Of a stretch of DNA of 48,031 nt, positions 27,405-48,031 are shown piece by piece; position 1 is the stretch's first letter; each line of letters starts with the position of its first letter. Both the position numbers and the translations under genes were made by a program. The stretch is from Candidatus Aenigmatarchaeota archaeon (GTDB lineage: Archaea; Aenigmatarchaeota; Aenigmatarchaeia; PWEA01): contig PWHK01000008.1 of NCBI GenBank assembly GCA_003554845.1, forward strand, positions 1 to 48,031, written 5' to 3'. The notes under the pieces were generated by a model. It saw only the letters and a list, made by a program, of their open reading frames with translations. It was not told the origin of the DNA and did not search any database.

Positions 27405-27492
27405 GCGGGGGTACCCAAGCGGCCGAAGGGGCAGCGTTGAGGGCGCTGTGCACGTAGGTGCTTCGTGAGTTCGAATCTCACCCCCCGCACCA
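27405..27492 (+). tRNA. tRNA-Leu (anticodon GAG), CCA encoded
   Basis: Acceptor GCGGGGG/CCCCCGC, anticodon arm CAGCG-TTGAGGG-CGCTG, long variable arm, T-arm GTGAG-TTCGAAT-CTCAC, ACCA end. Confidence 0.95.
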
Positions 27493-27496
27493 CTGT

Positions 27497-27994
27497 TTAC
27501 TTGAAACAGTGCTTAATTTCTCTTATGCGCCATGTGCAGTTCCATCCAACCAGATCACAGTAGTCCTCTCCCTCCGTCGGCTCCACTGCAAACTCCCCTG
27601 TCTGGGGCTCAAGGAAAACTACCCCTTGATCCGCTGTGTCAAAGGCAACTATAGAATGGGAACCCTTTTCATGGTCTATAAAAACTGTACATGCACCTAT
27701 ACCTTCACCCAGTGCATTCCCTACAACATCGTTGGCAAAGTCCTGGCAAACGTAGTCTTCGCTATAGTTGTTAAGATATGTTCCGTCTTCCATCACAAAG
27801 TCAACAACATCGGAGTAGTTTACTCTATATGTAGTCTCCCTGCCGAAGGTTTTTTCCTGTGTTTCGTTTTCGGTAGGAATACCATACCCACCACTATCAC
27901 CCATAAAACGCCCTGTTAAAGAACCCGAATAAAATAAAGCGGATAAAACTAAGACGACTGCAAAAAATACTGTAACCAAAATACCTCTGTCCAT
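27497..27994 (-). CDS. membrane-anchored transglutaminase/cysteine-peptidase-like exported protein
   Basis: N-terminal TM ending SGSLTGRFM; EDYVCQDFANDVVGNALGEGIGACTVFIDHEKGSHSIVAFDTADQGVVFLEPQTGE has Cys / His / acidic spacing typical of transglutaminase-like folds. Confidence 0.6.
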   Translation of the reverse strand: MDRGILVTVFFAVVLVLSALFYSGSLTGRFMGDSGGYGIPTENETQEKTFGRETTYRVNYSDVVDFVMEDGTYLNNYSEDYVCQDFANDVVGNALGEGIGACTVFIDHEKGSHSIVAFDTADQGVVFLEPQTGEFAVEPTEGEDYCDLVGWNCTWRIREIKHCFK

Positions 27995-28063: not shown

Positions 28064-28606
28064 CTACCTACCGGTGTTGTTCATATACCTATCAACCATA
28101 CCCGGATCCTGGCCGTTTTTGTCCAGAGATCTCTTGAGCTGCTCGGGGGTAAATCCCCTGTTGAGATTCCTACGTATCCATCTCTTCATACCGCTTGGAA
28201 TATCATTACCAACGTCTAATCTATCTCCTGTTGTATTGAGCCTGTTCTTCAGTTCTTCTAATCTGTCGTTACTTCTTTGGCTTCTGCTCCGGGGTGAAGA
28301 TCCTGTATCTACTTTATTTCCATCAACGGATCTCTCTTTTTTTCTGGCCTCAAAAACAGGTCCCCTTCCCTCTTCATCTGAGGACTCCGCAGGAGATTTT
28401 ATCGGTCTGTCTTCTGGAAAACGACGATCCCCGTCACATGCCTTTAAACTGGAAATATCCTCCTCCATCTGTTTCTGCTTTTCATAAATACTCTGTAGTT
28501 TATCTTCTATAGTCGGACCTTCGACTATTTCCTCTATTTCCTCTGCAAAGCCGTCGCCTTCGAAGTCCGTTTCCTTAAACTTTTCAAATATATCTCTAAT
28601 TGACAT
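28064..28606 (-). CDS. hypothetical cytoplasmic protein with C-terminal short helical motif
   Basis: Low-complexity linker, C-terminal MKRWIRRNLNRGFTPEQLKRSLDKNGQDPGMVDRYM; overlaps the upstream coiled-coil gene by 11 nt. Confidence 0.72.
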   Translation of the reverse strand: MSIRDIFEKFKETDFEGDGFAEEIEEIVEGPTIEDKLQSIYEKQKQMEEDISSLKACDGDRRFPEDRPIKSPAESSDEEGRGPVFEARKKERSVDGNKVDTGSSPRSRSQRSNDRLEELKNRLNTTGDRLDVGNDIPSGMKRWIRRNLNRGFTPEQLKRSLDKNGQDPGMVDRYMNNTGR

Positions 28607-29612
28607 TTACATCACCTACAGCCTTCAGGGCCTTCAGTAACATCCTCTGACGTTCCTTCAGTTTTTTGTTTTGCTCCAGGACTTCCCCGAACATACTCCT
28701 TACCTCCTTGTATTCTCCCAGAGCTTCCTTTAGATTTTTAGAATCAATGTTTGAGAGCATCTCATCGACGAGATCACTTATCTCGTATACCTTGTTCTCG
28801 ACCTCTTCATCTGTTTCCTCTATCTTTCTCTCCAGTTCCTTCCTCAGATCCTTGAGATCGTCCTCTTTTACCATATCTTCTGTCTTAATATCTATCTTAT
28901 CCACACTTCTCATAAGCTCCGTTATAGTCTCCTTGTTGGAATCTATCTTTCCCTTGTAGTTCTCAAACTCACTGACCTTGTTGGATATCTCAGAAAATAT
29001 ATTTTCTATCTTGGATGCCTTCCTCTCAACATAGTTCTTGTTTTCGTCTATCTCATCAAGCTTCTTGTTTATCTTGTTTGAAAGATCTATTATATTTTCT
29101 ACATCCTTTATACCACTTAGTTTCTTATCGACGTCCCTTATCTTCTCCTTGAGAACTTTAAACTGCTCGTCAAACTCTTCAATCCTTGCCTCGTTCTTTG
29201 AGATCTCTTCCTCCTTCTTCTGCAGTTTTTTCTCAAACCTACCAGGCTGTATCTCTTCGAATATCTCCTTTATTCTGCCGAAGTCTCCTTCGAGATCGTC
29301 AAAGTCCCTCTCTCTGTCCATGAGACTGGATCTCAGTTCACCTATCTGACCGGACAGCTCCTGTATCTGATCCTGAAAGCCAGACCTTTCATCCTGCACC
29401 ATCTCAAGCTTTGCTTCAAGCTTGTCTATACGCATCGTTAGCTTATCTAACTTACTGGCCTCATCGGGTATCTCCTCGACATCCTTGTCTTCGTCTTCAA
29501 CAACAAGACCTCCTTCCTCTTCCTCTATCTCATCAAACTCTTCCTTGCTAATGACGTTTTCCCTGTCCTCGGTGTCTTCTTCAACCAAGTCCTCTATATC
29601 GTCTTCGGCCAT
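28596..29612 (-). CDS. long acidic coiled-coil protein
   Basis: 338 aa, almost continuous heptad-like sequence, no TM or signal peptide; 8 nt downstream of the giant ATPase gene. Confidence 0.8.
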   Translation of the reverse strand: MAEDDIEDLVEEDTEDRENVISKEEFDEIEEEEGGLVVEDEDKDVEEIPDEASKLDKLTMRIDKLEAKLEMVQDERSGFQDQIQELSGQIGELRSSLMDRERDFDDLEGDFGRIKEIFEEIQPGRFEKKLQKKEEEISKNEARIEEFDEQFKVLKEKIRDVDKKLSGIKDVENIIDLSNKINKKLDEIDENKNYVERKASKIENIFSEISNKVSEFENYKGKIDSNKETITELMRSVDKIDIKTEDMVKEDDLKDLRKELERKIEETDEEVENKVYEISDLVDEMLSNIDSKNLKEALGEYKEVRSMFGEVLEQNKKLKERQRMLLKALKAVGDVNVN

Positions 29613-29620
29613 CTGTTCAC

Positions 29621-32600
29621 CTACTTTAATTTATCCTCAAGGGAGTTTATGTAAATTTCGGTCATCCTGAAGTTACCCGACTTAAGCTTGTTCTTTGCCA
29701 TTCTCAGAGATGTTCTAAGATCAAAGACATCCTCGCCTCTGTCATCCATATCATCGACCTTGGCTTCGAGTTCGTCAAGCTTCTCGGCAAACTCCTCGTA
29801 CTTCTTCAGCTCCTCTTCCTTGAGTTTGTGTGGATTGTGCCACGTGGGCCTGAACCTCACAAACCACGGATCACCGTCGTTATACTGGGCGTGCTGCATC
29901 ATACAGACACCTATACCCTGTCTTGTTATCCTTTTAGCGTACTTTTCTCCGTACTTGTCCTTTGCTTTTCTTATATCCTTTATAGCCTTTGTATTGAACT
30001 GGACATCCGTTAGAACATTACCCTCTATAGCCTCCTTGAAGTCAGCCAGAACCTGTGAACACATTATAAGACCTATTCCCCATTTTCTGAACTCTCTGCA
30101 TGCCCTTTCAAGTGCCTTGTAGCCACCCTTACCGCCGTACTTCTCAAGAAGCCTATGAACTTCGTCGAATACCACAACAAGTTTAAGCTCCTCGGACTCC
30201 TCCCAGTTTATCTCGAACATCGAGTCTATTATATTTCTCACTGCCCTGTCGAACTCCTCGGTGGAAAGTTCATTTAATGTGAAAACCGTTATCTCACCCT
30301 CCTGTGTAAGCTCCTGGAAGTCTATATCCCTGTCTGGATCATCCATCTTGTGTATCATACCAGGATAGCTTCTCCTTTTTCTCTTGTCCATTCCGTGGTG
30401 ACTGTAGTGCTTAAGAAGCTCCTCGTCCTCGCACTGGTTGACAAATCCTGTCCACTGGGCTGTGGGATCAAATACAACGACGGGTATTCCCTGATCCAAA
30501 GCCTCCTCTGCAAAGACAGAGGCACCAACCGACTTACCTGCGCCTGTGGCACCTGCAACCAGGGCATGTGTCTTTAGGTCGTCGGGATTGTAGTATGCCT
30601 TTTTATTGCCTCCTGCAAGCTTTCCTATCCAGAAGGATCTATCGCTCTTCTGTGGTATTGCATTATCATCTACCGGGAAAAGATACCTCTGCTGTTCTTC
30701 CTTGGCCTTCTTCCACTCTTTATACTTACCCTTTAGATGAACGGTGCTTATGACTATAGCCAGTATAGCAATCGGGAGCCCAAGGAAAAGAAGTGCTTGG
30801 CCTGCTGTAGTTGCCCAGAAAGTTTCAAGTACATGGAATGTTTGCATGTCTCTCACACCTTTGTTGTCGAACTTGGCCCATACCTCTAAGTTATATTTAC
30901 CGGGTTCCGTGTCCTCGGGTATCTCCATCTGTCTGAAGCCCGAATAACTGCCTGTAAACGTCACATTTTCTCCTGCTTCAACCACTGTCCTGTTGTCGGG
31001 GCCTCTTGCTGTGTAGGTAGCCTCTATATCTAACTCATTTGTACTCTCGGTATTTAACTCTAAACGGAAGGTTACGTTGTCGCCTCTCTCCACCTCATCA
31101 TCAACAATATTCACATCAAGAGAAAGATACTCGTCGCCCTCTTCCAGTACATTAACCTCAAAGGGCAGGGTCCTCTGTCTGCCTCTTGCAGAAAGAAGTA
31201 TATCACCAGAAAAGGTACCAGGCCCTGTTTCTACCGGAACCTGTAGGTCCATCTCCAGTGTTCTTGAGCTTGTCGACTCCAGTTCAATCGAGCTCTCTTC
31301 AAACTCCAACCAATCGGAAACATCACCTAGAGGCTCGAGATCAACGGTTAGATTTTCATGTATATTGTTTGTCAACATAATCCAGAAGCTTCTCATGTCA
31401 CCTGGGAAAAGGTCCACGCTATCGAGGTTAGTTTCGAGGTCGAATGGGAAAGGATCCTCCTCTTCGCCGGGCATTGCACCGTTTCCTCCACTGTCGCCGG
31501 TATCCCCTGTATCATCGGGCGTGTATCCTGCACAGTCAATAAGTTCGCCGTCGGATATGCATGCCTCTGCAAGAATATAGGCACTCCCTGGTTCTTCGTC
31601 CAAGAAGTTTAGGGTGTTTTCCTGTGTACTGGGGCTATAATCAAAATAGTGTTCCTCACCCAAAGTTATGTTACAGTCTCTATATTGATAGTCCCATTCA
31701 CTGCACTTCAAAACCCTAAGGTTTTCTGTGTTCTGGACTCCACCGAGGCTTCGGCCTGAGAAATCCATGGTTATATTTCTACGTGAAAATGTGAGATTTT
31801 CGTCTGCTTCAACCACAATACCAAATATAGGATTCTGGAACTTTCTTGAAATAGTTCTAAGGGCGCCATCGGCTGCATCCGAATCGGGTATATAGTCAAA
31901 CTGAAGGGGATCCTGTAGTTCATCACCCGAAGTCGAATCGTTTATATCTAGGGATTCAAAAATTATCTCCTGGCCGAATACCTCCACATTCATATCGTAC
32001 CCACGCCTATGTACTTCCCAGTCGAACTCGGATGTTTCTTCACCGACTGTAAACTCATGTATGGGATGTGGCCAGAACTCCCTTCCTTCTCTGTAGAAGG
32101 TAAAGTTTGCAGATATATTGTCACCGGTCGGCTTATCGAGACTGCCTCTGAGATCAACGGGCTCATAGACACTGAACCATCCACGGGTACTGTTAACAAG
32201 GCCTCCTCCGAGATCGCTGTATTCTCCCAGCTCTCCTGTATCGTTGGCATAGACAGTTATGTCATAGTCTCCGACGGGAAAATCTTCACCGCCTGTACCA
32301 TCAAAGTCTGACTCGGTGAGATTGAATATAAACCTATCTCCGTTCCTCTCGTAGTCTGTTATGTTTAAAACACCATTCGGTATATCTATGCCTACCCAGG
32401 CCTCGTCCACGCCTGTGTTATCTGTTATGTCAACCTCTATCTCCTTGTAACCATAATCGCGTACAGTGTCCTTGTCTATAGGATCCACGTACACATCAGA
32501 AAATACAGGAGAAACAACATCTTTGTATATTACAGAGTCCTCGTTCTCTCCATAACTGGTCAAGTTGTCGTGTGTTGCCGCAACCCTTATACTGTTCTTT

Positions 32601-35600
32601 ATGGGGTTACCTGGGACCCACGGAACTTCACATTTTATAATCCATGCAGCAGACAATGTATGGAAGGGTTCATCTGTTTTCGTACACATCTCACCATCGA
32701 CCCATACATCAAACTCCACGTCATCATCCACAACATCATCAAGGCGTGTTACATTTACGCTTAGTTCAACTTCGTCACCGACGTTCAATGGACCTTCATG
32801 GCTGTCTTTGGTTGGGTTCAAAACATCAACAGTTAGGTCAACTATATCCAGTGTAGCGGTGAAGTTTATGTAGGACGGTATAAGATCATCTATAGGCTCC
32901 AGAGTTATATCTGCAACATAGGTTCCATTCTCGTAGTCTTCTTCACCTCTCTGATGTACTACCTCTAAGATCACAGAACTCTGGTTGGCAACTTCTACTG
33001 TCTGCTTTGATGTAGTTATATAGTCCGTATGCCCCTCTGTTCCATTACCGTCGAAATATACATCAAAGGAACTGTTTTCTTCAATGTTGTTGAAAATTTC
33101 TACCTGGCCTATAACACCCTCCATATCACCTGTACCTATAGTTTTGTTCATAAACTCAGGTTCCTTCTCAATGTACCAGTCTGGAATATCTACAGTAAGG
33201 TTAAAGACCGAAACATCCCAGCATCTATCCTCCGGAGAGCAAGTGGAGTTTGTAGCATTTGCGACTATATCGGCAGTATACAAACCTGGCTCTATGTCCA
33301 TGGGCAACGTGGCATTAATATCCACTGTTTTATTATGGCCTCTTTCTATATCTCCGATGTTTCCCGAAACAGAAGTCCAGTTGTAGATGTTTTCGTTGCT
33401 GACGTTGGTCATATTTATCGTTACATTTTCGACTTCCGTATTACCAAAGGCTTCGACCGAGAAGTTGGCAACGACCCCTTCGAAACCAGCAGATTCTGAT
33501 GAGTTCACTGTATCCTCCATGATATTAAGAGCAGTGTTGTCCATGATTTCAAGTATAGTCGAGTTCTCCGTTGTATTTTCACTTCCATCGGAGTTGGTCC
33601 AGTGGAGGGTTGTATTAATATCGGTAGTTCCTGGGTCCGCGTACTGTGTTACATTTACTTCGGCTGTCCTTGTGCAGTTTTCACCGTCGTCGAGAGGTGG
33701 ACATTGGACATCCTCTACATATATACCTTCTTCTGTGTCTACAGTTATCTCGGGTGAAAGCATAAGGCTTCCCTCGCTCTTGACTGTGAGATTTATACCA
33801 AAGGTATGGTTGTTCAACCTGGTTATGTCTTCTGCCTCTTCAAATGACGGCTCCTGGAGAAGTGTTCCAGTTGTATTGCCCGAGTCAACCACAAATGTCA
33901 GTTCGCCTTCGTTCGTTGATGTCACATTGTAAAATACAGAGGACTGGTCTGTTATGTTACAGGTTAGATTGTACTCGCCTTCCTCCGAGGTCTGGAACCA
34001 GTGGTATCCCAAACCGGAATCCAGGGTAATGTTGGTTCCCATTTTATCTGTATCGTTGTAGAAGTCCACATAATAACCTCCTATACCCCCGGAGCTGTGT
34101 GAATCATAAACACCGCAGTCAAATCTTACATCTGCATTCTCCCCACAGATCCAGGAGTCATCTCTAAGGGTACAGTAGTCGGATGTCAGATCTATATCAC
34201 CTACTTCAGACCATCCGTATAGATCAAAGTTCAATGTAGTAAAGTTCGGTACATAGTATTCACCGTCTGCAGAAGCATATAGCCTCCTGTCTCCCACCAG
34301 CTCACTGATATCGGGTTCCCACGGTCCATCGTCTTCCATCACCCAATCTCTGAAAACCACATCCTTATCCAGAGGAGCCCCGGACTGTGGTGTCAGGCAC
34401 TCTCCGTACTCATCTGATATACATATACTATCCACAAGAAGATGTGGGGCATCGCGTCCATAACCTGCATTCCCATCGTACTCAACAACAACAGATATCC
34501 AGTCTGAATCTACAAACGACCCATTGTAGCATGTGGTTGAATTCCATGTAGACTCATCCTCTCTGAGCCTGTCCATATCAAAGTCCATATGACAAGATCC
34601 CTCTCCGGCATAAACAGTCGCCGTTCTCTCGTCATCAAAGGTTCCCCATGCCTTGTACACAAGGGAGAGATACTCCGAGTTGATTTTTCCAGGAACAGTA
34701 ATGTTGAGATATGTTTTGCCGTCGAATGCAAATACATGGGCAGAGTAGTTCCCACTGTAGCTATCGTTTTCTATAAAAACATAGTCATTGTAGTCGTCGC
34801 TTCCGGGCGTTCCATCTGTATAATTCCATCCCGACAGACTTCCGCCTTCAAATCCTCCATTCTCTATGTAATGTATCCTATCCTGTGGCTGCTGGTTGGA
34901 TTCATTCCACATAATCCGGTAGTCCCTGCTCTCCCCGGTCTCTAAGTCCACAAGGAAGACTATATCTGTGTAGTTATCCACATATTCCTTTTCATAGTCC
35001 AGTTCCTCCTTTTTTTCATCTGTCCAGGGTCTTACTTCCATGGAAACATTTCCATCTGAAACAATCCGGGTATCGTTCACTCTCCAATTACTGAAATCAA
35101 CGCCTATTTCCTCGAGCCAAGATCCGTTTATCCTTAGGGGCTCATCTGTTCTGTTTAAACCCATGTTCTCTGTCAAACCTATCCTTATGCTATCCTTCCT
35201 GACAAGGCTCCAGTTAGCCGTGTAGCCATCGATCTGCACACCCTCACAGGAATCGTTTACCTCGGACCCAAGATCTATTGTTTTGTTTTTGTGTTGAAGT
35301 GAACCCGACTGAGGGTCTGTTATATTAATATCAAGACTGTCCCATACCTCCACATCCGAGGAGTCAATTCCATCGACAACTGTATAGAACTGGCTTTCTC
35401 CACCGACTTCTACAGTAATACTGTAACCCCCTCTATCTACATCACAGTCTGGTTCCCAACTGTACATACATACCCCATCACCGAAACCACCTGAACCTGC
35501 TTCCTCTCCGTTGTAGTAGTATGAGCAATCGTGTCCTTCTTCAGAAACTTTTTCGCCGTACTGGTCGACAAGCCCACTCTGAAGTTCCGATGCTGTATTT

Positions 35601-38488: not shown

Positions 38489-38541
38489 GCTTTCTACATT
38501 AGTCTACGTATCAGGATTAAAATGCTTATCGTTTGGTCGAA

Positions 38542-38769
38542 CTAGACCTCAACAGGCTTCATATTCTTTGTCACTTCCTTGAGATCGTTGATTGCCTCCT
38601 TTAGTTCCCTTACCTCATGAGAAAGCTTTATCTCTTCCTCGTCAAACTCCTTAAGAATCCTCTTCTGTTGTCTGAACTCGAACTCCAATATGATTAGGTA
38701 TACAACCACAAGGAGACAGAAGATTACAAGAAGCTCCATTATTGGTATATTAATTCCAAATATATACAT
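38542..38769 (-). CDS. small single-TM protein with cytoplasmic coiled coil
   Basis: 75 aa; MELLVIFCLLVVVYLIILEFEF followed by an amphipathic helical tail; located between surface protein and giant ATPase genes. Confidence 0.7.
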   Translation of the reverse strand: MYIFGINIPIMELLVIFCLLVVVYLIILEFEFRQQKRILKEFDEEEIKLSHEVRELKEAINDLKEVTKNMKPVEV

Positions 38770-38775
38770 CTATTT

Positions 38776-41700
38776 TCACCTCTCTGATCTAATGCTTCCT
38801 ATTCTTTTGTAGGAGATATAACCTGCACCGGCCACCGCCAGTATGATCAAGAGCACAGTTATTGCTCCACCGGCTGGCTCAAATGAGCCCTCTACATAGA
38901 AGTTTCCAGTTCCAGAAGCCAGTGTTGTGAAGTCTTCTCTGAAACTTACCCTGGCCATGTAGTCACCCGACGGTAGATTTGGAGAGAGAATATATTTCTC
39001 TGTGAGTTCCGTTTCCTCAAGAGGCTCAAGATCCTCTATCTCTACTATATCCGACAGTACAACGTTCCTTCCCGGTCCAACTATCTCCGATTCCAGTCTT
39101 GCCCTGTCTATCTCCTGACCTCCGTTTATAACCAGTATACTTATGTTTACAGGTGAATCGAGATCATACGAGTCCTTCTGTGGTGTAACTATAACCGTAG
39201 GATAGGACTGTTTGTATCTTATCTTTATCTGTCTGAGTTCATCTGGACCTATTTCATCTATAAATACAGAAGTAGATGCTTCTCCTCCTGTGTACTGGAG
39301 CTCTTCTCCAAAACCTGTCTCAACACTTATAACATCATCATACCGGATCGGTAGGTTGAAAACTACTTCCTCATAGGAATCCCTTGCAAAGTTTCTTACA
39401 AATACGTCCATTTCAAGCTCTACCATCTCACCGGGTAGCTCATCAACAACTTCTACATCTCTGTCAACCTCCATGACAGGTGCAGTCAAGGCCCTAATCT
39501 CGTAACTGCGTGTAGTCAAGGCAGGTATCCTTTCTTCCCATTTAAGTACCATTGAATCTTCTCCTTCCCTTAGGTCACCCTCTATTCTGACTGTTTCTCC
39601 GTCTTGATCTGTATACTGAACCCATGCCCTCTCTACTGCGTTCAGTACATCAACCTCGAAGGTTCCACGGACAGGTCTTGGATTTGGATTGTAAACTTCA
39701 ACGGGCTTCATCCACTCTGCCATATCTCCAACGGATACTCTTCTTGTAAGGCTAACGTCACCTTCTCTGATATCAAGATCCCTTGTAGGTTCAGGAACGG
39801 AAACCCTGACATCTCCTATGGCGGTTGCTCCTAGTTCAACTCCTGTGGCAGGGTCTATACCTGCAAGGGTTGCAGGCATCTCGTAAAGTCCCGAGTCTGT
39901 TATATTGAACTTGTATGAGACCCTTATCATTTCGTTATCATTAAGATGCCATCCATCACCGTCCTGTTCATCAAGGTATTCATATGCTTCGACCGTCTCA
40001 CCCGAAGGCAGTTCAACTGTTCCAAGGTACTCTATGTGATACTCTGTGGTCCATTCCGTCCATGTCTGGCCGCCATCGTCCGAATATTCAACTATTACAT
40101 CTCCATCTGTGAAGTTTGTTCCCTGTGGAACGTAGTCTGTAAACATTATACCTTCAATTCCCTCTTGTTCATCGGTTGCATCTATTACCTCTACTCTGAG
40201 AACACCATCTATCAGTGTAGGCTGTTCCGGGTCTTCTGCAACAAGGTCCTTGAAACCTATCAACCTCTTTGCAGAAACACTCAAAGTCTGCTCGGGCTGA
40301 ACCTCGGTAAGCGGAGTTCCTGATTCTGTGGTATATGTATTTTCACCGTCAAAGGTAAATACATTACCAGTCTCGGTAGTATAGTTTGTATATACACTGT
40401 ACTCGAGCCTTATCTGCTCGGACTGATTGAGATTACTGTCCAGACCTTCGATGGCTTCGACGTTGCCTATTGAAATCTCTACAAGACCGTCGTCTCCTTG
40501 ACTTGTGGGCTGTGTTACCTGTACAGTTACATCGTTGGTTATGTCCTGTGTGGTTTCGTCGTCAAAGAAAACCTGTACACTTTCTTCGTCTACAGCAAAG
40601 AATGTATCATCGCCGTGTCCTAAATCGGAAGGAGATTCTCCATCATCTGTGGTTCCTGGAATTCTTGAAACTATATCCACGCTTTCTGCCTTTGCCTCGG
40701 TAGAACCCTGGTGTGTCGTATTGTCTGTTATATTTATAATCTCGCCCTGTGTTCCCGGATTGAGTACACCATCCAGGGTCTTCTGGTTTATCATATCAAC
40801 CTTGTAGAGAACTGGCATATCAAGTGTAGTATTTATATATGCAAAGTGGTTTTCGGCATCTGTATCGTTCCAAACAACCTCCCATTTGAACTCTGTTGCA
40901 TAATAAGGCTTAGCTGCGTCGGTGTCGTACCACTCGCCGCCTCCTGCCACATCGTCTGTTGTGTATATTCTTCCATGTTCACCTGTTATATCCTCGGTGA
41001 AGCCCTCTTCCATATGTTGAACTCTCTCATCCAGCTCTCCCTGGTCTGTGACGTTGTAAATGGCCCACTCATGCACTGTGTATGTAAGGTTGTTTGCAAG
41101 ATTTCTCATAAAACCTCTTACATTCCATCCCTGGTCCGTTTCAGATAGATCCGTACCCTGCCTTATAGGACCTCTGGAAAACCTACCTTCTATGGTCTTC
41201 CCTGTAAGTGTTTCAATATCAGACCAGTAGGATCTTGCTCCCCTGTCCTCTGAATCTAGATCGACAGAGTCACCATCGAAATGCTCGTGCTCTTCCATCT
41301 CACCCTGGAAGGTTACTGTCTCGGATGAATCTGTTCCTATATCACCTGTCCACTCGACGCGGTCTTGGTTCCCATCTTCATTGGAATCACTTGAACTTGC
41401 ACCTTCACCTGTAGTTGTAATATCTATAACTGAACCCTCCTCTGTATCAAACTGAACCGCTATGTCCACGCCATTCAGTGTATGGACCGTCGAAGGATTT
41501 GTAACGGTCAGTGTGAAGTCCATCGTATTAACCGGTGTATCTACGTTATCAGAGCTGTATAGATCCTCACCGCCCTCCACGTTACTGTAGTCCAGAGAAA
41601 GTTGTATAACCGGGGCCTGATCGGCGTCGTCTATATTATAATATAGGCTTTGGTCGTTTTCTGTTGTATTAAGGTAAAGATACGACCTATCCCATGGTTC

Positions 41701-42033
41701 TCCAAAAGAAGAAAGTGCTCCTTTGTATGCAGTACTAGACTGAAGATCCGTGTCTGTAGTATCTGATATGTTGACTCTTATGTACTGAAGAACATCCTGT
41801 GTATTTGAAACTGCAACCTGAGAATATCCATATCGGCATGGATTTTCATCACCGCATTCAGTCCAGGTAACAGAGTTATCTATACTCCCGTTATGATTGT
41901 AGTGTGCCTCGACCTGTTCTGTGAGATAGGCAGCAGGTCCAACGGTCTGTGCCAGAGCCGGAAGACTCAAAAATCCAACAGCAAGTAAAAAAGCGGTAGC
42001 AGCTACGATCTTCTTCATGGCAATCAATTTCAT
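38776..42033 (-). CDS. large secreted surface protein with C-terminal TM anchor (paralogue A)
   Basis: Signal peptide MKKIVAATAFLLAVGFLSLPALAQ; many N-x-S/T; C-terminal ITVLLIILAVAGAGYISYKR. Start may be the internal ATG at 42018. Confidence 0.85.
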   Translation of the reverse strand: MKLIAMKKIVAATAFLLAVGFLSLPALAQTVGPAAYLTEQVEAHYNHNGSIDNSVTWTECGDENPCRYGYSQVAVSNTQDVLQYIRVNISDTTDTDLQSSTAYKGALSSFGEPWDRSYLYLNTTENDQSLYYNIDDADQAPVIQLSLDYSNVEGGEDLYSSDNVDTPVNTMDFTLTVTNPSTVHTLNGVDIAVQFDTEEGSVIDITTTGEGASSSDSNEDGNQDRVEWTGDIGTDSSETVTFQGEMEEHEHFDGDSVDLDSEDRGARSYWSDIETLTGKTIEGRFSRGPIRQGTDLSETDQGWNVRGFMRNLANNLTYTVHEWAIYNVTDQGELDERVQHMEEGFTEDITGEHGRIYTTDDVAGGGEWYDTDAAKPYYATEFKWEVVWNDTDAENHFAYINTTLDMPVLYKVDMINQKTLDGVLNPGTQGEIINITDNTTHQGSTEAKAESVDIVSRIPGTTDDGESPSDLGHGDDTFFAVDEESVQVFFDDETTQDITNDVTVQVTQPTSQGDDGLVEISIGNVEAIEGLDSNLNQSEQIRLEYSVYTNYTTETGNVFTFDGENTYTTESGTPLTEVQPEQTLSVSAKRLIGFKDLVAEDPEQPTLIDGVLRVEVIDATDEQEGIEGIMFTDYVPQGTNFTDGDVIVEYSDDGGQTWTEWTTEYHIEYLGTVELPSGETVEAYEYLDEQDGDGWHLNDNEMIRVSYKFNITDSGLYEMPATLAGIDPATGVELGATAIGDVRVSVPEPTRDLDIREGDVSLTRRVSVGDMAEWMKPVEVYNPNPRPVRGTFEVDVLNAVERAWVQYTDQDGETVRIEGDLREGEDSMVLKWEERIPALTTRSYEIRALTAPVMEVDRDVEVVDELPGEMVELEMDVFVRNFARDSYEEVVFNLPIRYDDVISVETGFGEELQYTGGEASTSVFIDEIGPDELRQIKIRYKQSYPTVIVTPQKDSYDLDSPVNISILVINGGQEIDRARLESEIVGPGRNVVLSDIVEIEDLEPLEETELTEKYILSPNLPSGDYMARVSFREDFTTLASGTGNFYVEGSFEPAGGAITVLLIILAVAGAGYISYKRIGSIRSER

Positions 42034-42050
42034 ATTTGATAGTTAAATAT

Positions 42051-45000
42051 TTAAAGCTTTTTCTTGGCCTTTCTTCTTATTTCATCTATTCTTTCCTGAT
42101 AACGATCCTTCTTACGGTAAAGTCTTGACAGTATCAATCCGACTACAGCGGCAAAGACCGCTATGATATGCCAAACCTCGACGGCGAATAATTCATCCCT
42201 TCCTTCGACATAGAAGGAGGACTCCCTCGAAGTAATAGTCTGGAAGTTTCGTCTGAAAACGGCCTTCATGTTGTATTGGCCTTCTGGAAGACCGGCGAGA
42301 TCCACAGTCCTGAGAATTTCCTTACTGATATTGTCCATGGGTATCAACTCGGAGTAAACCTGTCTATGGCTTGGTTCAGGGCCTGTTACAGTGAGTTCCA
42401 CATGGCCTCCGACATGCCCCTCCTCTCCCACAACAAGTATGGTTATATCGGAACTCTCCTTGTGCGTGTAGCTGTAGCTGTCTGGACTTAAAACAAGTAT
42501 AGGCGGGAGCTCCCTGTATACTGTTTCAACAGAGACCGTCTCTCCCGGACCAATTGATCCAAGGTGTATCTTTGTTTTCTCGCCGGACCCTATGTAGTCT
42601 ATGTCTTCCCCATCGATTGTAACAGAACTTATACTTTCGTAGGGTATATCAACGAGATGGCTTACATCCTCGTACTCATGGGGTGCGTAGTTGCGGAATT
42701 CCTTATTGAAGATGAACTCGACCGACGTGTGGTTTGATTCAACTATACCTATATCTTCCTTATCGAGAACAACAGGTGAGGTATGGGATTCAAATTCAAA
42801 TATTCTTCTCTGGAGAGGCCCCATGTCTACTTCCCAGTTTACAAACTTACGACGGAGTTTTTCCTTAACCTCGAGCTTCTCTCCATCCACATAACAGGAA
42901 AAGGCCTCGTCTGGAAGGTATATCTGAAGAGTCCTTTTCATTCGCTCCTTGTTGGGATTGTTTACAGTAACTTCCCTTGTCCATCTCACAGGCTCGTCGA
43001 CGATGGCTTCATCCTGGAACCATCTATCTCTGTGTATACCCATGGGCTCGGCCTCCCAACCAACCCTTACAGGAGAAATCTTATCATCGTTTACAAATAC
43101 ATCATCGTAGTAGTCGTAGTACGATACCCTTGTAACTATACTGTTTCTGCCGAAGTTTGCTCTTGTATCGTATGTTACATTGATCATTTCTCCATCGTCG
43201 AGTCTAAGTCCCTGATCTCTGTCACTCATTATACTTATCTCGTAAAATGAAAATCCCTCACCATTGACAGTTCTTTCACCTACCTTTTCTATATCGTACT
43301 CGTCGGGCATTAGCTCGTTCCACTGGCTGTCCTTCTTGTATTGGACTTCTACTGAGGGTTCCTCCAGATGGTTACCTGGTTCAAGAAGCACACCGAGATC
43401 TATATTTCTCATACCTCTGTTTCCTGTATCCCTCACCATATCGGACCTTGTTATCCTGACGAGATTTCCTGTAACAACGGACGCAGTCGACTCGATGTTC
43501 TCGAGATCAAGCCTCTTTGGAGCAGGAGGAGGTGAAGGATCAGGTGGATCTGGATCTGGCTCATCGACACCATCCAAGGATATATTTTCCTCGGCAAACT
43601 GCGAATCAGGAGTACCGGAAGACGACCAGGACGTTGAGTTCGAGTAGAAGGAGTATTTCCTGTCTTCATCCGAGCTTCCTGAAGCGATGGTGTACTCAAG
43701 GAGTATATCCTCATTAGGTTCAAAGAAGTCCGTGGTCTCGTTGGCCATGACTTCTGCCCTGACATAACCATATGAACCACTACCAGGCTCCTCTATAACT
43801 ATATTAGTATCGTTTGTTATATCCCGTGTTCTCGGCTGACCATTTACAAAGTCCCTATAAGCAACAGATACATCATCTATGTTCCAGTATTCACTGTCTC
43901 CATCGGTAGACTCGTTTGGAACGATAGAGAAAATCTCTGTTCTGTTTGCACGGGTTTCTTCTTGGCCTATGTTTTTCAGTGTATCCCTTACACGTATCTT
44001 CCTGCCGTCCATACTGTTCTGCTGAATGGAAAGATCCTTCTGGAGATCGCCTTCGAAAAAACGTATAAGAGGCATTTCCACTACCTCCGACTCAACGTAC
44101 TCTCTATATATAGAATCACCCCACTGCACAGACCAGTCGAAGGTTGCAAAGTAGTACTGCTTCTCCTCCTCGTCGGAGTAGTATGTATCGGTGTATATGG
44201 CTTCACCGGGTTCGATTTGCTCGTTTACAGTTGCGTTTATCAGTGGCTCATCTTCGTCTATTCTGTAAAGTTCCCAGCCATCCACATTGTACTTTAGGCT
44301 GTCTGCTCGGTTCATAAGAAATCCTTCTATCTCCCAGTTTTCTCCGTCCTTTTGAACCATATCTATTCCGTTTCTGGCAGAGGCCCTTGAATACCTTGCA
44401 TGGAAGCTTATGTCGGTAAAGGTGGAGTCGTAGTTTTCGTATGTGGCCATGTACTCGCCTCTATCCATATCGACCGGAACGGCTGTGTTGAAGTTGACTC
44501 CGGGTTCAGTAACACCTCTAAACGATATCATCACAGGCTCCCTTTCGTAGAGGTTCCCCGACCACTCGACTGTCTCATAGTGGTCGTTCGATCCTTCTCT
44601 TTTTACCCTCCTACAGCGGTCGTAGTCACCTGTACAACCATGGTCTCTGAGATTAAAGGAATCCTGTCCCTGTGGACCTGTCTCTGTAGGAACCTTGAAA
44701 AAGAACTCTGCGCCGTACATATCCTCCGAGCTTTCGAGCACAACACTGAACTCCAGGACGTTTTCACCGCCATGTATCTCCTTTCCTCCTCTGATGTTCA
44801 TGTATTCGATCTCTACATCCAATCTGGGTGTTTTCCAGGGATCAATTGTATAGTCCAGAGCCTTGTCGGAATCCTCGATTTCCAGATACATCTTTGTAGG
44901 ATCGCCTGCTGGTGAAGAAACCGCAGGCCTGTATGCCTCCAAAGACTCCAGATTTGTTCCGTTTGTCGTAGTAACTGTAAGTGTGGTGTCCTTTAGTATA

Positions 45001-45218
45001 TCGTTGGAAAATACGCCGATAGAACCCTTTCTATCGACGGATCTGACCGTTCCGTTTGGACGGTAATCTGTGATCACCTTCTCATCTATATGGCTCGTTG
45101 GATTGACTACCTCCGCAGTAGCAACTGAGCCAAACCACATAAAAGTAGCCATAAAAAGTATCAGTACAAGGGTTTTCATCTTCATAACAATCGAATTCAT
45201 TTGATTATTTGGAGCCAT
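42051..45218 (-). CDS. large secreted surface protein with C-terminal TM anchor (paralogue B)
   Basis: Signal MKTLVLILFMATFMWFGSVATAE; aligns by eye along its length to the 38776-42033 protein; C-terminal TM and basic tail RIDEIRRKAKKKL. Confidence 0.85.
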   Translation of the reverse strand: MAPNNQMNSIVMKMKTLVLILFMATFMWFGSVATAEVVNPTSHIDEKVITDYRPNGTVRSVDRKGSIGVFSNDILKDTTLTVTTTNGTNLESLEAYRPAVSSPAGDPTKMYLEIEDSDKALDYTIDPWKTPRLDVEIEYMNIRGGKEIHGGENVLEFSVVLESSEDMYGAEFFFKVPTETGPQGQDSFNLRDHGCTGDYDRCRRVKREGSNDHYETVEWSGNLYEREPVMISFRGVTEPGVNFNTAVPVDMDRGEYMATYENYDSTFTDISFHARYSRASARNGIDMVQKDGENWEIEGFLMNRADSLKYNVDGWELYRIDEDEPLINATVNEQIEPGEAIYTDTYYSDEEEKQYYFATFDWSVQWGDSIYREYVESEVVEMPLIRFFEGDLQKDLSIQQNSMDGRKIRVRDTLKNIGQEETRANRTEIFSIVPNESTDGDSEYWNIDDVSVAYRDFVNGQPRTRDITNDTNIVIEEPGSGSYGYVRAEVMANETTDFFEPNEDILLEYTIASGSSDEDRKYSFYSNSTSWSSSGTPDSQFAEENISLDGVDEPDPDPPDPSPPPAPKRLDLENIESTASVVTGNLVRITRSDMVRDTGNRGMRNIDLGVLLEPGNHLEEPSVEVQYKKDSQWNELMPDEYDIEKVGERTVNGEGFSFYEISIMSDRDQGLRLDDGEMINVTYDTRANFGRNSIVTRVSYYDYYDDVFVNDDKISPVRVGWEAEPMGIHRDRWFQDEAIVDEPVRWTREVTVNNPNKERMKRTLQIYLPDEAFSCYVDGEKLEVKEKLRRKFVNWEVDMGPLQRRIFEFESHTSPVVLDKEDIGIVESNHTSVEFIFNKEFRNYAPHEYEDVSHLVDIPYESISSVTIDGEDIDYIGSGEKTKIHLGSIGPGETVSVETVYRELPPILVLSPDSYSYTHKESSDITILVVGEEGHVGGHVELTVTGPEPSHRQVYSELIPMDNISKEILRTVDLAGLPEGQYNMKAVFRRNFQTITSRESSFYVEGRDELFAVEVWHIIAVFAAVVGLILSRLYRKKDRYQERIDEIRRKAKKKL

Positions 45219-45235
45219 TAAATAAAAATATCACC

Positions 45236-48031
45236 TTACCAGAGAAGATTACCATCCTCCCTGCCGTAGTATATCTCCAGCTCTCCTCTGATCTTCGCCG
45301 CTGCTATATCGTCGTCAGACGTACCTCTTAGGGTCATTTCCGGTCTGTTGTATACAATATCCTCCAGTTCCTCAACTGTAAGATGGCAGCGCATATCGTC
45401 CCCTGTACTTATCTCACATATCTTTTTATCTTCTCCGTACACCTCGAACTCAGAGAAGTCTCCTCGTATAACATCCATATCCAAAAATATATTTGCACCC
45501 TGTGGCGTGTAGCCTCCAATAGGTCTTGCCTCTAGATCCATAGATTTCGCCCCGCCTGTTGTGGTGTAGACAACAGTACCTGACTCAAAGGAAGACGAAG
45601 CAACGGTAGGCCTTTCCCTCATGAAGAAACCTGTAACCGTATCACCTCCTGCAAGCATTCCGCTTGTAATTATGAGGCCCAGTAGCACAAGAACCATGAC
45701 AGCCTCCTTTCTGCCTTCGTGTCTGGGTTCTATGTCTCTTTTCTCATCCATCTTTTCATAGAGATGTTCCTTATTTATTTCTCCATCCCCTCTATGTATA
45801 TATCCTTCACCAGCGAATTCGAAGTCTATTCTCCAGAACATAAAGGCGGATAAACCAACTATACCCACGATAAGCAGTACTACATAAAGCCATCTGAACT
45901 CAACTTCCTTCTCTATGTAAACTCTGAAGCTGTCTGTTGCTATGGCTTCCCTGCCTGTGTATGTGATAAGGGACTCAAATATGTACATGCCTTCTTCTAT
46001 ATCATCGGGTAGATACAGTCCAAGCTCCCTCTTGGCTGTATCTTCGACTGCAAATGTATCGGACTTCTGTGTCAGAACCTCGCCTCTGTCATCTCTTATA
46101 GAGTAGGTGTTGACAACATCGACTGTGGCCATCCTTCCTCCTATGTTGTGCATCTTAAGTGCACCTTTAACAAGGTTTCCGGGGTTTACCTCTCGGCTAA
46201 GTACGTTCAAAGACGTGTCGAATGCCGGTATATTTGCAGATTCATGCATCTCTGTCCTTATATGTGCATTGTGTATAGGGTCAAAACCGCCAAGAACCGT
46301 CGGTACTCTCCACTGTCCTCCACCCACAATTGATATGTTGTACCTTATGTTTACTGTATCGTTTTCGTAGAGGTTGCCATCCCAGTTGCTGTAGTCGCCT
46401 ATGCTCATATTGTAGTGGTATAGCCTTCCCATGAATCCATCTGGAAGTTGTACCCAAACAGGATCTTCAAGTATATAGTCACTTTCGTTGTAGAGCTCTT
46501 TGGCCTCTCCCGTGGAGTTGATATACTTCACAGTCTTGTTCTCAGGCTCTTCTGCAGCATCGGGTAGATAGTCTGCTATGTAAAGCTCTGAGCTGACTCC
46601 GCCTATCGAGGTCATGTTTATCTCGACGCTGGCTATCTGTGGATTTGTGCGGTCGGGTATCCAAACGTCCTTGTTGCCACGGAGTACCACATCGAACACC
46701 TCTATTGTCGTGTTTATCCACTCTGTCTCCTCGTTGCCCTGGACATCCTCGACTGTGGAGTTTGTATACATGGTTCTTCCTTCGTTGGCACCCATCTTTG
46801 AACTTGTCATTGTATAGTTTACGGCAACTGTGTCGCTTTCATGCAGATGGCCGAGTTCGGTTGTCGACATATCAACTGTAACGTTAACAACTGCGTTGTT
46901 TTCACCGGGGTATTCGTTTACCTCGACATCAGCCTTTTGTGTTATATCCTCCTGTTCATAGGGGTCGGCCGTGGTCCTGATTACATTTATATCGTCTTCA
47001 GAAGGCGGTGTGAAGTCATACGGTACCTCGTCCAGTATCTCTACATGTGATATGTTGTTGTTTGTCTCCACAACATCCAGTTCCGTAGTCACGTCTATAT
47101 CTTCCTTCTCGCCGACCACAAGTGATCCAGGTTGCATTTCCTTGAAAAGTTCCAGATCTATTGTAGAGACTGTGAAGCTAGCTTCGTCCTGTCCAACGTT
47201 TTCTGCCCTGTCCTCGGCCTCCAGAATAACCGTGTAGTCCCCATCGTCCATTTCCTCCAGAGTATATGTCTCTTCGACACCGACGTATCTTGGTTCTTCC
47301 TCGTCGTCCAGGTACAGTCTGTACTCCTCCAGTCCACTTACTCCCGGATCGCTGTTCCACTGTACGGTGACGTTCTCGGTATCAACTGTTTGGCCTTCGT
47401 CTGGTTCAGTTATAGTTACAGTTGGTACTGTATCGTCGACAACGAGAGAGTCCTCTTCCACATCTTCTGCCAGGTTGTCTGCTTGGTCGTAGACCTCTAT
47501 ACTAACGTTGTAGTATCCGTCGTCTGTTCCATCGGGAACAACAACCGTGGCGTTGACACCTATGCCCTCATCCACATCCATATTGACTATATCTCCGTTT
47601 TGTCCTGTTACGTATATTGTGGCGTTGTCAAAGTATGCATCTGTCGCTGTATAATTAACATCTACATCCTCTCCACTCTGTATATACACAGGATCATCGG
47701 TCGCAGGCCAGTGTATCTCGGCCTCGGGTGGTGTATCTTCTACCCTTATGCTATCAGCCTCATAGTCCCAGGCACTATTACCTCCCAAATCATGAGCCGT
47801 TAGGTTTAGAGAATAGTTTCCTTCTGCATAACCTGCAGTATCCAAAGTCTGGATGGATTCTACTCCCTCGGAGAGATCGTAACTATCTATCTCCAACATT
47901 TCTTGATCAAATACTGTTAAGGTTGCGGAAGAGAAGTGCTGGTCGGTTGCTGTGTAGGTTACATCTACGTTGGTTCCAGACTGAACTACTTCCGGATCGG
48001 ACTGTGTTGGACTGTGTATCTCTGCCTGGGG
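45236..48031 (-). CDS. large surface protein with tandem Ig-like repeats, two TM segments and C-terminal exported-type domain (N-terminus beyond window)
   Basis: The frame stays open from the listed Met (47899) to the window edge: PQAEIHSPTQSDPEVVQSGTNVDVTYTATDQHFSSATLTVFDQE..., repeating AEIHWPATDDPVYIQSGEDVDVNYTATDAYFDNATIYV. Confidence 0.87.
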   Translation of the reverse strand, partial: PQAEIHSPTQSDPEVVQSGTNVDVTYTATDQHFSSATLTVFDQEMLEIDSYDLSEGVESIQTLDTAGYAEGNYSLNLTAHDLGGNSAWDYEADSIRVEDTPPEAEIHWPATDDPVYIQSGEDVDVNYTATDAYFDNATIYVTGQNGDIVNMDVDEGIGVNATVVVPDGTDDGYYNVSIEVYDQADNLAEDVEEDSLVVDDTVPTVTITEPDEGQTVDTENVTVQWNSDPGVSGLEEYRLYLDDEEEPRYVGVEETYTLEEMDDGDYTVILEAEDRAENVGQDEASFTVSTIDLELFKEMQPGSLVVGEKEDIDVTTELDVVETNNNISHVEILDEVPYDFTPPSEDDINVIRTTADPYEQEDITQKADVEVNEYPGENNAVVNVTVDMSTTELGHLHESDTVAVNYTMTSSKMGANEGRTMYTNSTVEDVQGNEETEWINTTIEVFDVVLRGNKDVWIPDRTNPQIASVEINMTSIGGVSSELYIADYLPDAAEEPENKTVKYINSTGEAKELYNESDYILEDPVWVQLPDGFMGRLYHYNMSIGDYSNWDGNLYENDTVNIRYNISIVGGGQWRVPTVLGGFDPIHNAHIRTEMHESANIPAFDTSLNVLSREVNPGNLVKGALKMHNIGGRMATVDVVNTYSIRDDRGEVLTQKSDTFAVEDTAKRELGLYLPDDIEEGMYIFESLITYTGREAIATDSFRVYIEKEVEFRWLYVVLLIVGIVGLSAFMFWRIDFEFAGEGYIHRGDGEINKEHLYEKMDEKRDIEPRHEGRKEAVMVLVLLGLIITSGMLAGGDTVTGFFMRERPTVASSSFESGTVVYTTTGGAKSMDLEARPIGGYTPQGANIFLDMDVIRGDFSEFEVYGEDKKICEISTGDDMRCHLTVEELEDIVYNRPEMTLRGTSDDDIAAAKIRGELEIYYGREDGNLLW

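Follow-up and report, generated by a model that had tools for sequence, protein, structure and literature searches.

A 48,031-bp window of DNA, which is one whole contig (PWHK01000008.1) of a 633-kb, 94.9% complete draft genome from a Candidatus Aenigmatarchaeota archaeon (DPANN archaea), ends in seven open minus-strand frames that span positions 28064-48031. The original prediction, made from the letters alone, took these seven consecutive genes with short or overlapping junctions for a single, undescribed multi-component envelope apparatus. The arrangement itself is borne out, with junctions of -11 to +53 bp. In transcription order, the frames encode proteins of at least 931 (S931, cut by the contig end), 1055 (S1055), 1085 (S1085), 75 (tm75), 2955 (GIANT), 338 (cc338) and 180 aa (p180), separated by 17, 17, 6, 53 and 8 bp and then by an 11-bp overlap, and several starts are preceded by GGTGA-like ribosome sites in the sequence (Table 1). 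Gene calls were mechanical throughout, and many of the relatives used for comparison are fragmented drafts. Here, we show that the cassette is real and conserved, and that it belongs to the SPEARE kind of giant DPANN surface protein and forms no new category.

Table 1 Features of the cassette in the 48,031-bp window (TM, transmembrane segment; Ig, immunoglobulin)
Feature	Description	Position	Strand
S931	Surface protein, 5' end lost at contig edge; Ig-like repeats, then two TMs around a short cytoplasmic loop, and a small ectodomain	45236..48031	-
S1055	Surface protein; N-terminal signal/TM and C-terminal TM; S1085 paralogue	42051..45218	-
S1085	Surface protein; signal peptide, beta-rich ectodomain, C-terminal TM	38776..42033	-
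tm75	Single TM helix and cytoplasmic coiled coil	38542..38769	-
GIANT	SPEARE-family protein, 2,955 aa	29621..38488	-
GIANT, residues 2546-2955	TM-ATPase-C-terminal helical part	29624..30853	-
GIANT, layout by residue	Hydrophobic 8-26; propeller ~110-420; ectodomain to ~2560; TM 2565-2583; HerA-clade ATPase ~2610-2890; C-terminal helices		
cc338	Acidic coiled-coil protein, SPEARE-associated coiled-coil family	28596..29612	-
p180	Cytoplasmic protein, 11-bp overlap with cc338	28064..28606	-

In GIANT, a single polypeptide holds an ectodomain of ~2,540 residues, a TM helix and, on the cytoplasmic side, an intact HerA-clade P-loop ATPase. The membrane topology was read from hydrophobicity: the protein has exactly two hydrophobic segments, the second of which lies ~390 residues from the C-terminus. 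Pfam matches a beta-propeller/FG-GAP domain near the N-terminus (3e-10) and DUF87 (5e-9) and HerA_C (4e-9) in the ATPase, and past the propeller the ectodomain probably consists of further beta-sandwich domains. The surface proteins had been predicted as three giants, but they are of ordinary size (about 1,000-1,600 aa) and the real giant is the ATPase protein.

A profile built without nanohaloarchaeal sequences matched the SPEARE ATPases of G324 (3.4e-173) and G172 (6.5e-176), which we took as Ca. Nanohalococcus occultus SVXNc and Ca. Nanohalovita BNXNv, respectively. Relatives were equated with published organisms by lengths only: in G324 a GTG lies where a start would yield 9,409 aa, and G213 has a 3,315-aa frame of the same length as the published SG9 SPEARE 3. 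In a maximum-likelihood tree of 67 ATPase domains, the window falls in a 14-member clade (support 92/85) that is sister to the nanohaloarchaeal SPEAREs, with a joint support of 100/96. Given the profile matches and the nesting in the tree, we assign GIANT to the SPEARE family on sequence grounds. Hence, the original contrast between this gene set and SPEARE was wrong for the ATPase (3e-173), and 'undescribed' fails for the central part of the cassette, given that the SPEARE architecture has been published (PMC10266531) and a 3,105-aa relative with an ectodomain of this kind, from a mud-volcano metagenome-assembled genome, is already called a SPEARE (PMC8470020). Relatives of the SPEARE C-terminus were also noted earlier in Aenigmarchaeota and other DPANN lineages (Hamm et al. 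2019, PMC6642349). The serine-protease, laminin-G and restriction-endonuclease domains of the original SPEARE definition were not found in GIANT by Pfam and NCBIfam scans. The protease and endonuclease of the founding SPEAREs have been argued to be misannotations (PMC10266531) and no longer define the family, and we therefore class GIANT by its ATPase and architecture.

SPEARE-type ATPases were found in 55/156 phylum genomes and in many genomes of other archaea; nearly all of them form the C-terminal end of a long frame, the longest being 12,145 aa. A type-A clade delimited by ectodomain score alone was discarded as non-monophyletic; the 14-member core is a clade, and the copies of 2.0-2.2 thousand residues from one family lie outside it. 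Nested in the archaeal clade is also a contig labelled Candidatus Omnitrophota bacterium (L035, QNCM01000049.1), which encodes a type-A SPEARE, S1085 and two tm75 genes and is probably a DPANN contig binned into a bacterial metagenome-assembled genome (MAG).

All motor motifs are in place in GIANT: Walker A (GATGAGKS), Walker B (VVFDEVHR), REFRKWG and SQ are invariant or nearly so in 24 aligned relatives, and by strict patterns Walker A is found in 60/67, Walker B in 66/67, the arginine finger in 67/67 and the Gln motif in 62/67 sequences, with all four in the window. Searched against the PDB, a profile of the ATPase set placed HerA at the top (1e-13), then HerA-type defence ATPases and FtsK. 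The AlphaFold model of the ATPase (predicted local distance difference test, pLDDT, 81) also had HerA as its top fold match (4e-9); HerA-type defence complexes came next, and further down stood TcpA, a coupling protein, and EccC, a type VII ATPase. Across the ATPase set, the DNA-import ATPase CedD ranked first among NCBIfam families (24/24, best 8.5e-17); the VirB4 models were weaker, and AAA_10 (VirB4-like) was below its cut-off in the window protein. Because HerA leads by both profile and fold and the VirB4 models are weaker, we call the motor HerA-clade, not VirB4, as judged from these comparisons and the predicted structure. The SPEARE ATPase has been labelled VirB4/TraG-like, beneath an Ig/beta-propeller ectodomain and a TM (PMC10266531), and that label is a looser form of the HerA-clade assignment. 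The CedD, HerA, TraC and TraD matches are all far below their family cut-offs, so the substrate is not readable from family matches. There are too few residues between TM and Walker A in GIANT for a HAS barrel, and no NurA gene was recognised within the cassette; another, stronger DUF87 match is found elsewhere in this genome.

In nanohaloarchaea a second ATPase gene follows the SPEARE gene (L106:9839-11710 in SVXNc, L108:9414-11300 in BNXNv, and L109:9377-11254). Its product, published as a VirB4/TraG-family protein, is closely paralogous to the ATPase domain of SPEARE (4e-173), and the two might form a mixed ring.

The ectodomain of the window's clade is of fixed length. Eight complete giants from several families measure 2,909-2,978 aa, are 34-49% identical end to end to the window's protein and can be aligned over 2,847-2,893 residues between families. 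Per 100 residues, the mean identity is 49-70% in the ATPase versus 24-53% in the ectodomain. Outside this clade, SPEARE ectodomains range from about 1,300 to >11,000 aa. Four SPEARE-type frames of ~10,900-12,145 aa (G249:C8, G020:C2, G073:C12 and G338:C54) are among the longest archaeal genes, and one of them is probably the 12,127-aa protein reported for the EX4484-52 MAG KA27. Fixed- and variable-length SPEAREs coexist in G070:C39, G025, G042, G078 and G006, and in one cell the two may have different jobs.

The most constant partner of the ATPase is the coiled-coil gene. Across DPANN, 59/68 SPEARE-type ATPase genes have a same-strand coiled-coil gene at most three genes downstream; of the nine that deviate, three (L035, L112 and L118) run out of sequence at or soon after the ATPase, and in L038 the coiled-coil gene comes further on. 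Within the phylum the coiled coil occurs in 48/55 ATPase-positive versus 3/100 ATPase-negative genomes (p = 1e-28; kinship ignored), and in those three the gene lies at a contig end, a position that would truncate the giant. The SVXNc locus runs SPEARE, second ATPase, coiled coil, the last being a 520-aa frame at L106:8256-9818, and the BNXNv locus also has a homologous coiled-coil gene. The cc338 protein has an N-terminal 'ENVIS-EEFDEIE' motif and a conserved 'IGELRS' core, the arginine of which is invariant in the aligned core from Aenigmatarchaeota to Nanohaloarchaeota. Orphan strong matches amount to 2/801 genes of the fetched loci, which together with the invariant arginine rules out low-complexity background for the strong matches and, from the alignment, identifies the SPEARE-associated coiled coil as a true family. 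In the window's relatives the protein begins with a near-identical 'ENVIT-EEFE-LE' peptide, plausibly a docking motif.

Weak matches (about 1e-8 to 1e-24) in SPEARE-less genomes were set aside as a different coiled-coil gene, mostly beside a topoisomerase-like gene. In SPEARE-less Aenigmatarchaeota (L173-L178), this different, conserved gene adjoins a small membrane protein and the topoisomerase-like gene. At another locus (G037:C53, L057), no coiled-coil partner could be recognised for either of two SPEARE-type ATPase genes, one of which encodes only 385 aa and no ectodomain. The 180-aa protein that had been read as a linker is probably the split-off C-terminal part of the coiled-coil protein, given that its final ~40 residues, a helical domain, have counterparts fused inside the coiled-coil frame of G012 and G006.

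The surface proteins and tm75 are more narrowly distributed. S1055 and S1085 are paralogous (E about 1e-57) and occur in an identical 19/155 phylum genomes, all of them ATPase-positive (p = 3e-10; kinship ignored); paralogue cross-matches are possible in some of these genomes, and most have distinct genes for both. No Pfam family matched S1085, and its AlphaFold2 model is beta-rich, of low confidence (pLDDT 44) and too poor for a fold search. Within the genus, each of the three other genomes with the cassette has an S931 homologue ahead of S1055, and homologues of 1,009-1,668 aa (frames may be incomplete) stand before S1055-S1085 in the same-genus G003 and G004 and in G138. The tm75 family, recognised by the pattern 'MYIFGI-IPILELLVIF..LEFEFRQ...FDEEE..LS...RELK' (with 'RELR' also used as a marker), immediately follows S1085 in nearly all loci where the junction is on the contig, mostly between S1085 and the giant; three genomes have a second tm75-like gene. 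In G006 the order is the window's (S1055-S1085-tm75-giant-coiled coil), and G229 has the same gene set with a type-A ectodomain (7e-238) and the giant divergent to the S-genes. G229 was equated with the EX4484-52 MAG KA24 through its 3,105- and 8,146-aa frames. In G070 a 687-aa DUF87 ATPase gene (L046:47-2110) sits inside the cassette, between S1085-tm75 and the giant.

Cassette elements thus keep their order beyond the genus and the family, and even in a second phylum, and for that reason the arrangement is far beyond chance. It is very improbable that these are unrelated neighbours merely resembling a system: surface-protein genes are often clustered in small archaeal genomes, but the order and co-occurrence conserved over families and another phylum contradict this. 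Both also support the original idea of a single multi-component envelope apparatus. The refuting condition first set for it, an ATPase retained in relatives that lack its neighbours, gives a mixed outcome. Of the predicted neighbourhood, the coiled coil stays with nearly every copy of the ATPase, whereas the surface proteins and tm75 accompany it in one sub-clade only.

The first 28 kb of the window hold mostly housekeeping genes (exosome, SBDS, proteasome, FttA and others). A 165-aa gene at 27497-27994 was rejected as an eighth member of the cassette, its only homologue being a paralogue in its own genome, with none in the 20 relatives searched. Just past the downstream end lies a tRNA-Leu(GAG) gene (window 27405-27492), and two other same-genus drafts (G001 and G005) gave no match to the cassette, which may be dispensable or may have been missed in their assemblies. 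The tRNA gene at the cassette end and these two drafts make an island insertion site possible. A viral origin was rejected, as 0/28 pattern matches in viral contigs encoded a relative. A link to type IV pilus loci also found no support among the neighbours: no pilus or archaellum parts (T2SSE ATPase, TadC/FlaJ platform, pilins) are in the cassette, and the T2SSE genes lie on other contigs.

The source organism probably lives attached to other cells, and attachment and transfer, the roles first proposed for the cassette, remain the leading ones. From its sequence, we favour a contact-dependent translocation or attachment machine that would hold motor and conduit in one polypeptide, with a probability of roughly 0.55. 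Beneath the membrane, six ATPase domains would assemble into a ring, as in HerA, FtsK and the conjugative coupling proteins. If the N-terminal segment is not cleaved, two membrane segments per subunit would give the TM-loop-TM-ATPase layout of VirD4-type coupling proteins, with the huge ectodomain taking the place of their short outer loop. Six ectodomains, together with S1055, S1085 and S931, would build a host-contacting stalk or conduit across the S-layer, and tm75 and the coiled-coil protein would link the ring to the membrane and the cytoplasm, perhaps also gating the motor. Driven by ATP hydrolysis, a polymer (DNA or an unfolded protein) would then pass between the symbiont and its partner cell; a less likely use of that energy is conformational work in adhesion. 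We prefer transport to adhesion alone on the ground that conservation is highest in the motor. The literature lends indirect support: SPEARE is known to be expressed (PMC6642349), and co-cultures of SVXNc show cytoplasmic bridges that reach 11 nm in width (PMC11001535). DNA import, effector export and adhesion cannot be separated on these data.

The three narrower explanations are each unlikely in our view, and none stands above the others. The first is attachment only, in which the ectodomains act as adhesins and the ATPase, instead of moving a substrate, works in assembly, clustering or force-dependent release. The beta-propeller and Ig-like ectodomains and the hugely variable ectodomain length of other SPEAREs are what one would expect of adhesins, but the ATPase is the most conserved part, with all motor motifs kept, its nearest relatives are DNA or protein translocases, and the conservation within the fixed-length clade is un-adhesin-like.

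Equally doubtful is Ced-like DNA uptake, with a HerA/CedD-like ring that pulls host or environmental DNA into a small-genome symbiont. CedD is the top NCBIfam match throughout the set, and Saccharolobus cannot import DNA without it, although export does not require it (PMC11868833). However, those matches are too far below their cut-offs for the substrate to be read, and no CedA/CedA1-like gene was seen in the cassette, the rest of the genome not having been searched for CedA. A type IV secretion system (T4SS)-type 'straw' for effectors, as proposed for nanohaloarchaea (PMC10266531), seems no more probable. It shares the ATPase and ectodomain plan, and nanohaloarchaea have the second ATPase after SPEARE, but the motor is closer to HerA than to VirB4, the second ATPase is a paralogue of the SPEARE ATPase and so not independent T4SS evidence, and no other T4SS part was recognised in the cassette.

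Several points also weigh against the translocation or attachment machine that we favour. To our knowledge, no SPEARE has been experimentally shown to translocate, and HerA-clade ATPases also act in phage defence and DNA repair. Each subunit would keep a single TM if its N-terminal segment is removed as a signal peptide, which may be the case. Among the cassette genes, no channel of the CedA/VirB6 kind was recognised, and the co-occurrence statistics are uncorrected for shared ancestry. Furthermore, in published proteomics the ectodomain of the nanohaloarchaeal SPEARE and its cytoplasmic part came from separate gel fractions, possibly a sign of processing (PMC6642349).

SPEAREs are among the main candidates for attachment of DPANN archaea to, and exchange with, their partner cells, and until now they have been described as single polymorphic giants. 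The partner set, with the coiled coil across DPANN and S1055/S1085/tm75 in the fixed-length clade, appears to be undescribed in the open-licence literature. It makes SPEARE function easier to test, as the conserved partners are defined targets for co-purification, localisation and, given genetic tools, deletion, and the fixed-length clade is small enough to be more tractable for structure work.

Among known systems, HerA (4d2i) and the FtsK-HerA translocases are the best fold and sequence match and share the P-loop core, Walker A/B and the arginine and Gln motifs. Unlike them, GIANT is membrane-anchored, carries a giant ectodomain and has a few dozen residues from TM to Walker A, with no HAS-barrel-sized region. 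VirD4/TrwB/TcpA resemble GIANT in their TM-outer loop-TM-ATPase layout, provided that GIANT keeps its N-terminal segment, and TcpA is among the better fold matches, but the outer loop of GIANT is ~2,540 residues long and no relaxase or T4SS genes were recognised alongside. Neither the T4SS channel (VirB6/VirB3/VirB8) nor other subunits were recognised among the cassette proteins by Pfam and NCBIfam, which distant homologues could escape. CedB/CedD of the crenarchaeal Ced system are likewise membrane-anchored HerA/VirB4-like ATPases, and CedD is the best NCBIfam family, although GIANT scores far below its cut-off, no CedA-type channel was recognised, and the cassette has no polytopic membrane protein of the CedA type (CedA was not searched genome-wide). 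It is conceivable, though we hold it only tentatively, that SPEARE and its coiled coil, with tm75 and the S-proteins in one clade, are a separate DPANN class of contact-dependent translocation, neither T4SS nor type VII secretion system, in which ring, pore and conduit come from the same polypeptide.

The closest likeness is to the nanohaloarchaeal SPEAREs (SVXNc_0300, BNXNv_0298, NAR1_1133 and SG9 SPEARE 1), which have the same N-terminal signal or anchor, propeller, Ig-like ectodomain, one TM, homologous C-terminal ATPase and C-terminal helices, with a downstream coiled-coil gene in the SVXNc and BNXNv loci. In contrast to their 6-9 thousand residues, the window's clade has a fixed-length ectodomain of 2.9-3.0 thousand residues, and it has the S1055/S1085/tm75 partners and no second tandem ATPase gene. 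The 3,105-aa SPEARE of the EX4484-52 MAG KA24 comes with partners that the published passage (PMC8470020) leaves undescribed, and its giant and S-genes are divergent; it shares with the window the type-A ectodomain, the coiled coil downstream, S1055 and S1085, and it has two tm75-like genes.

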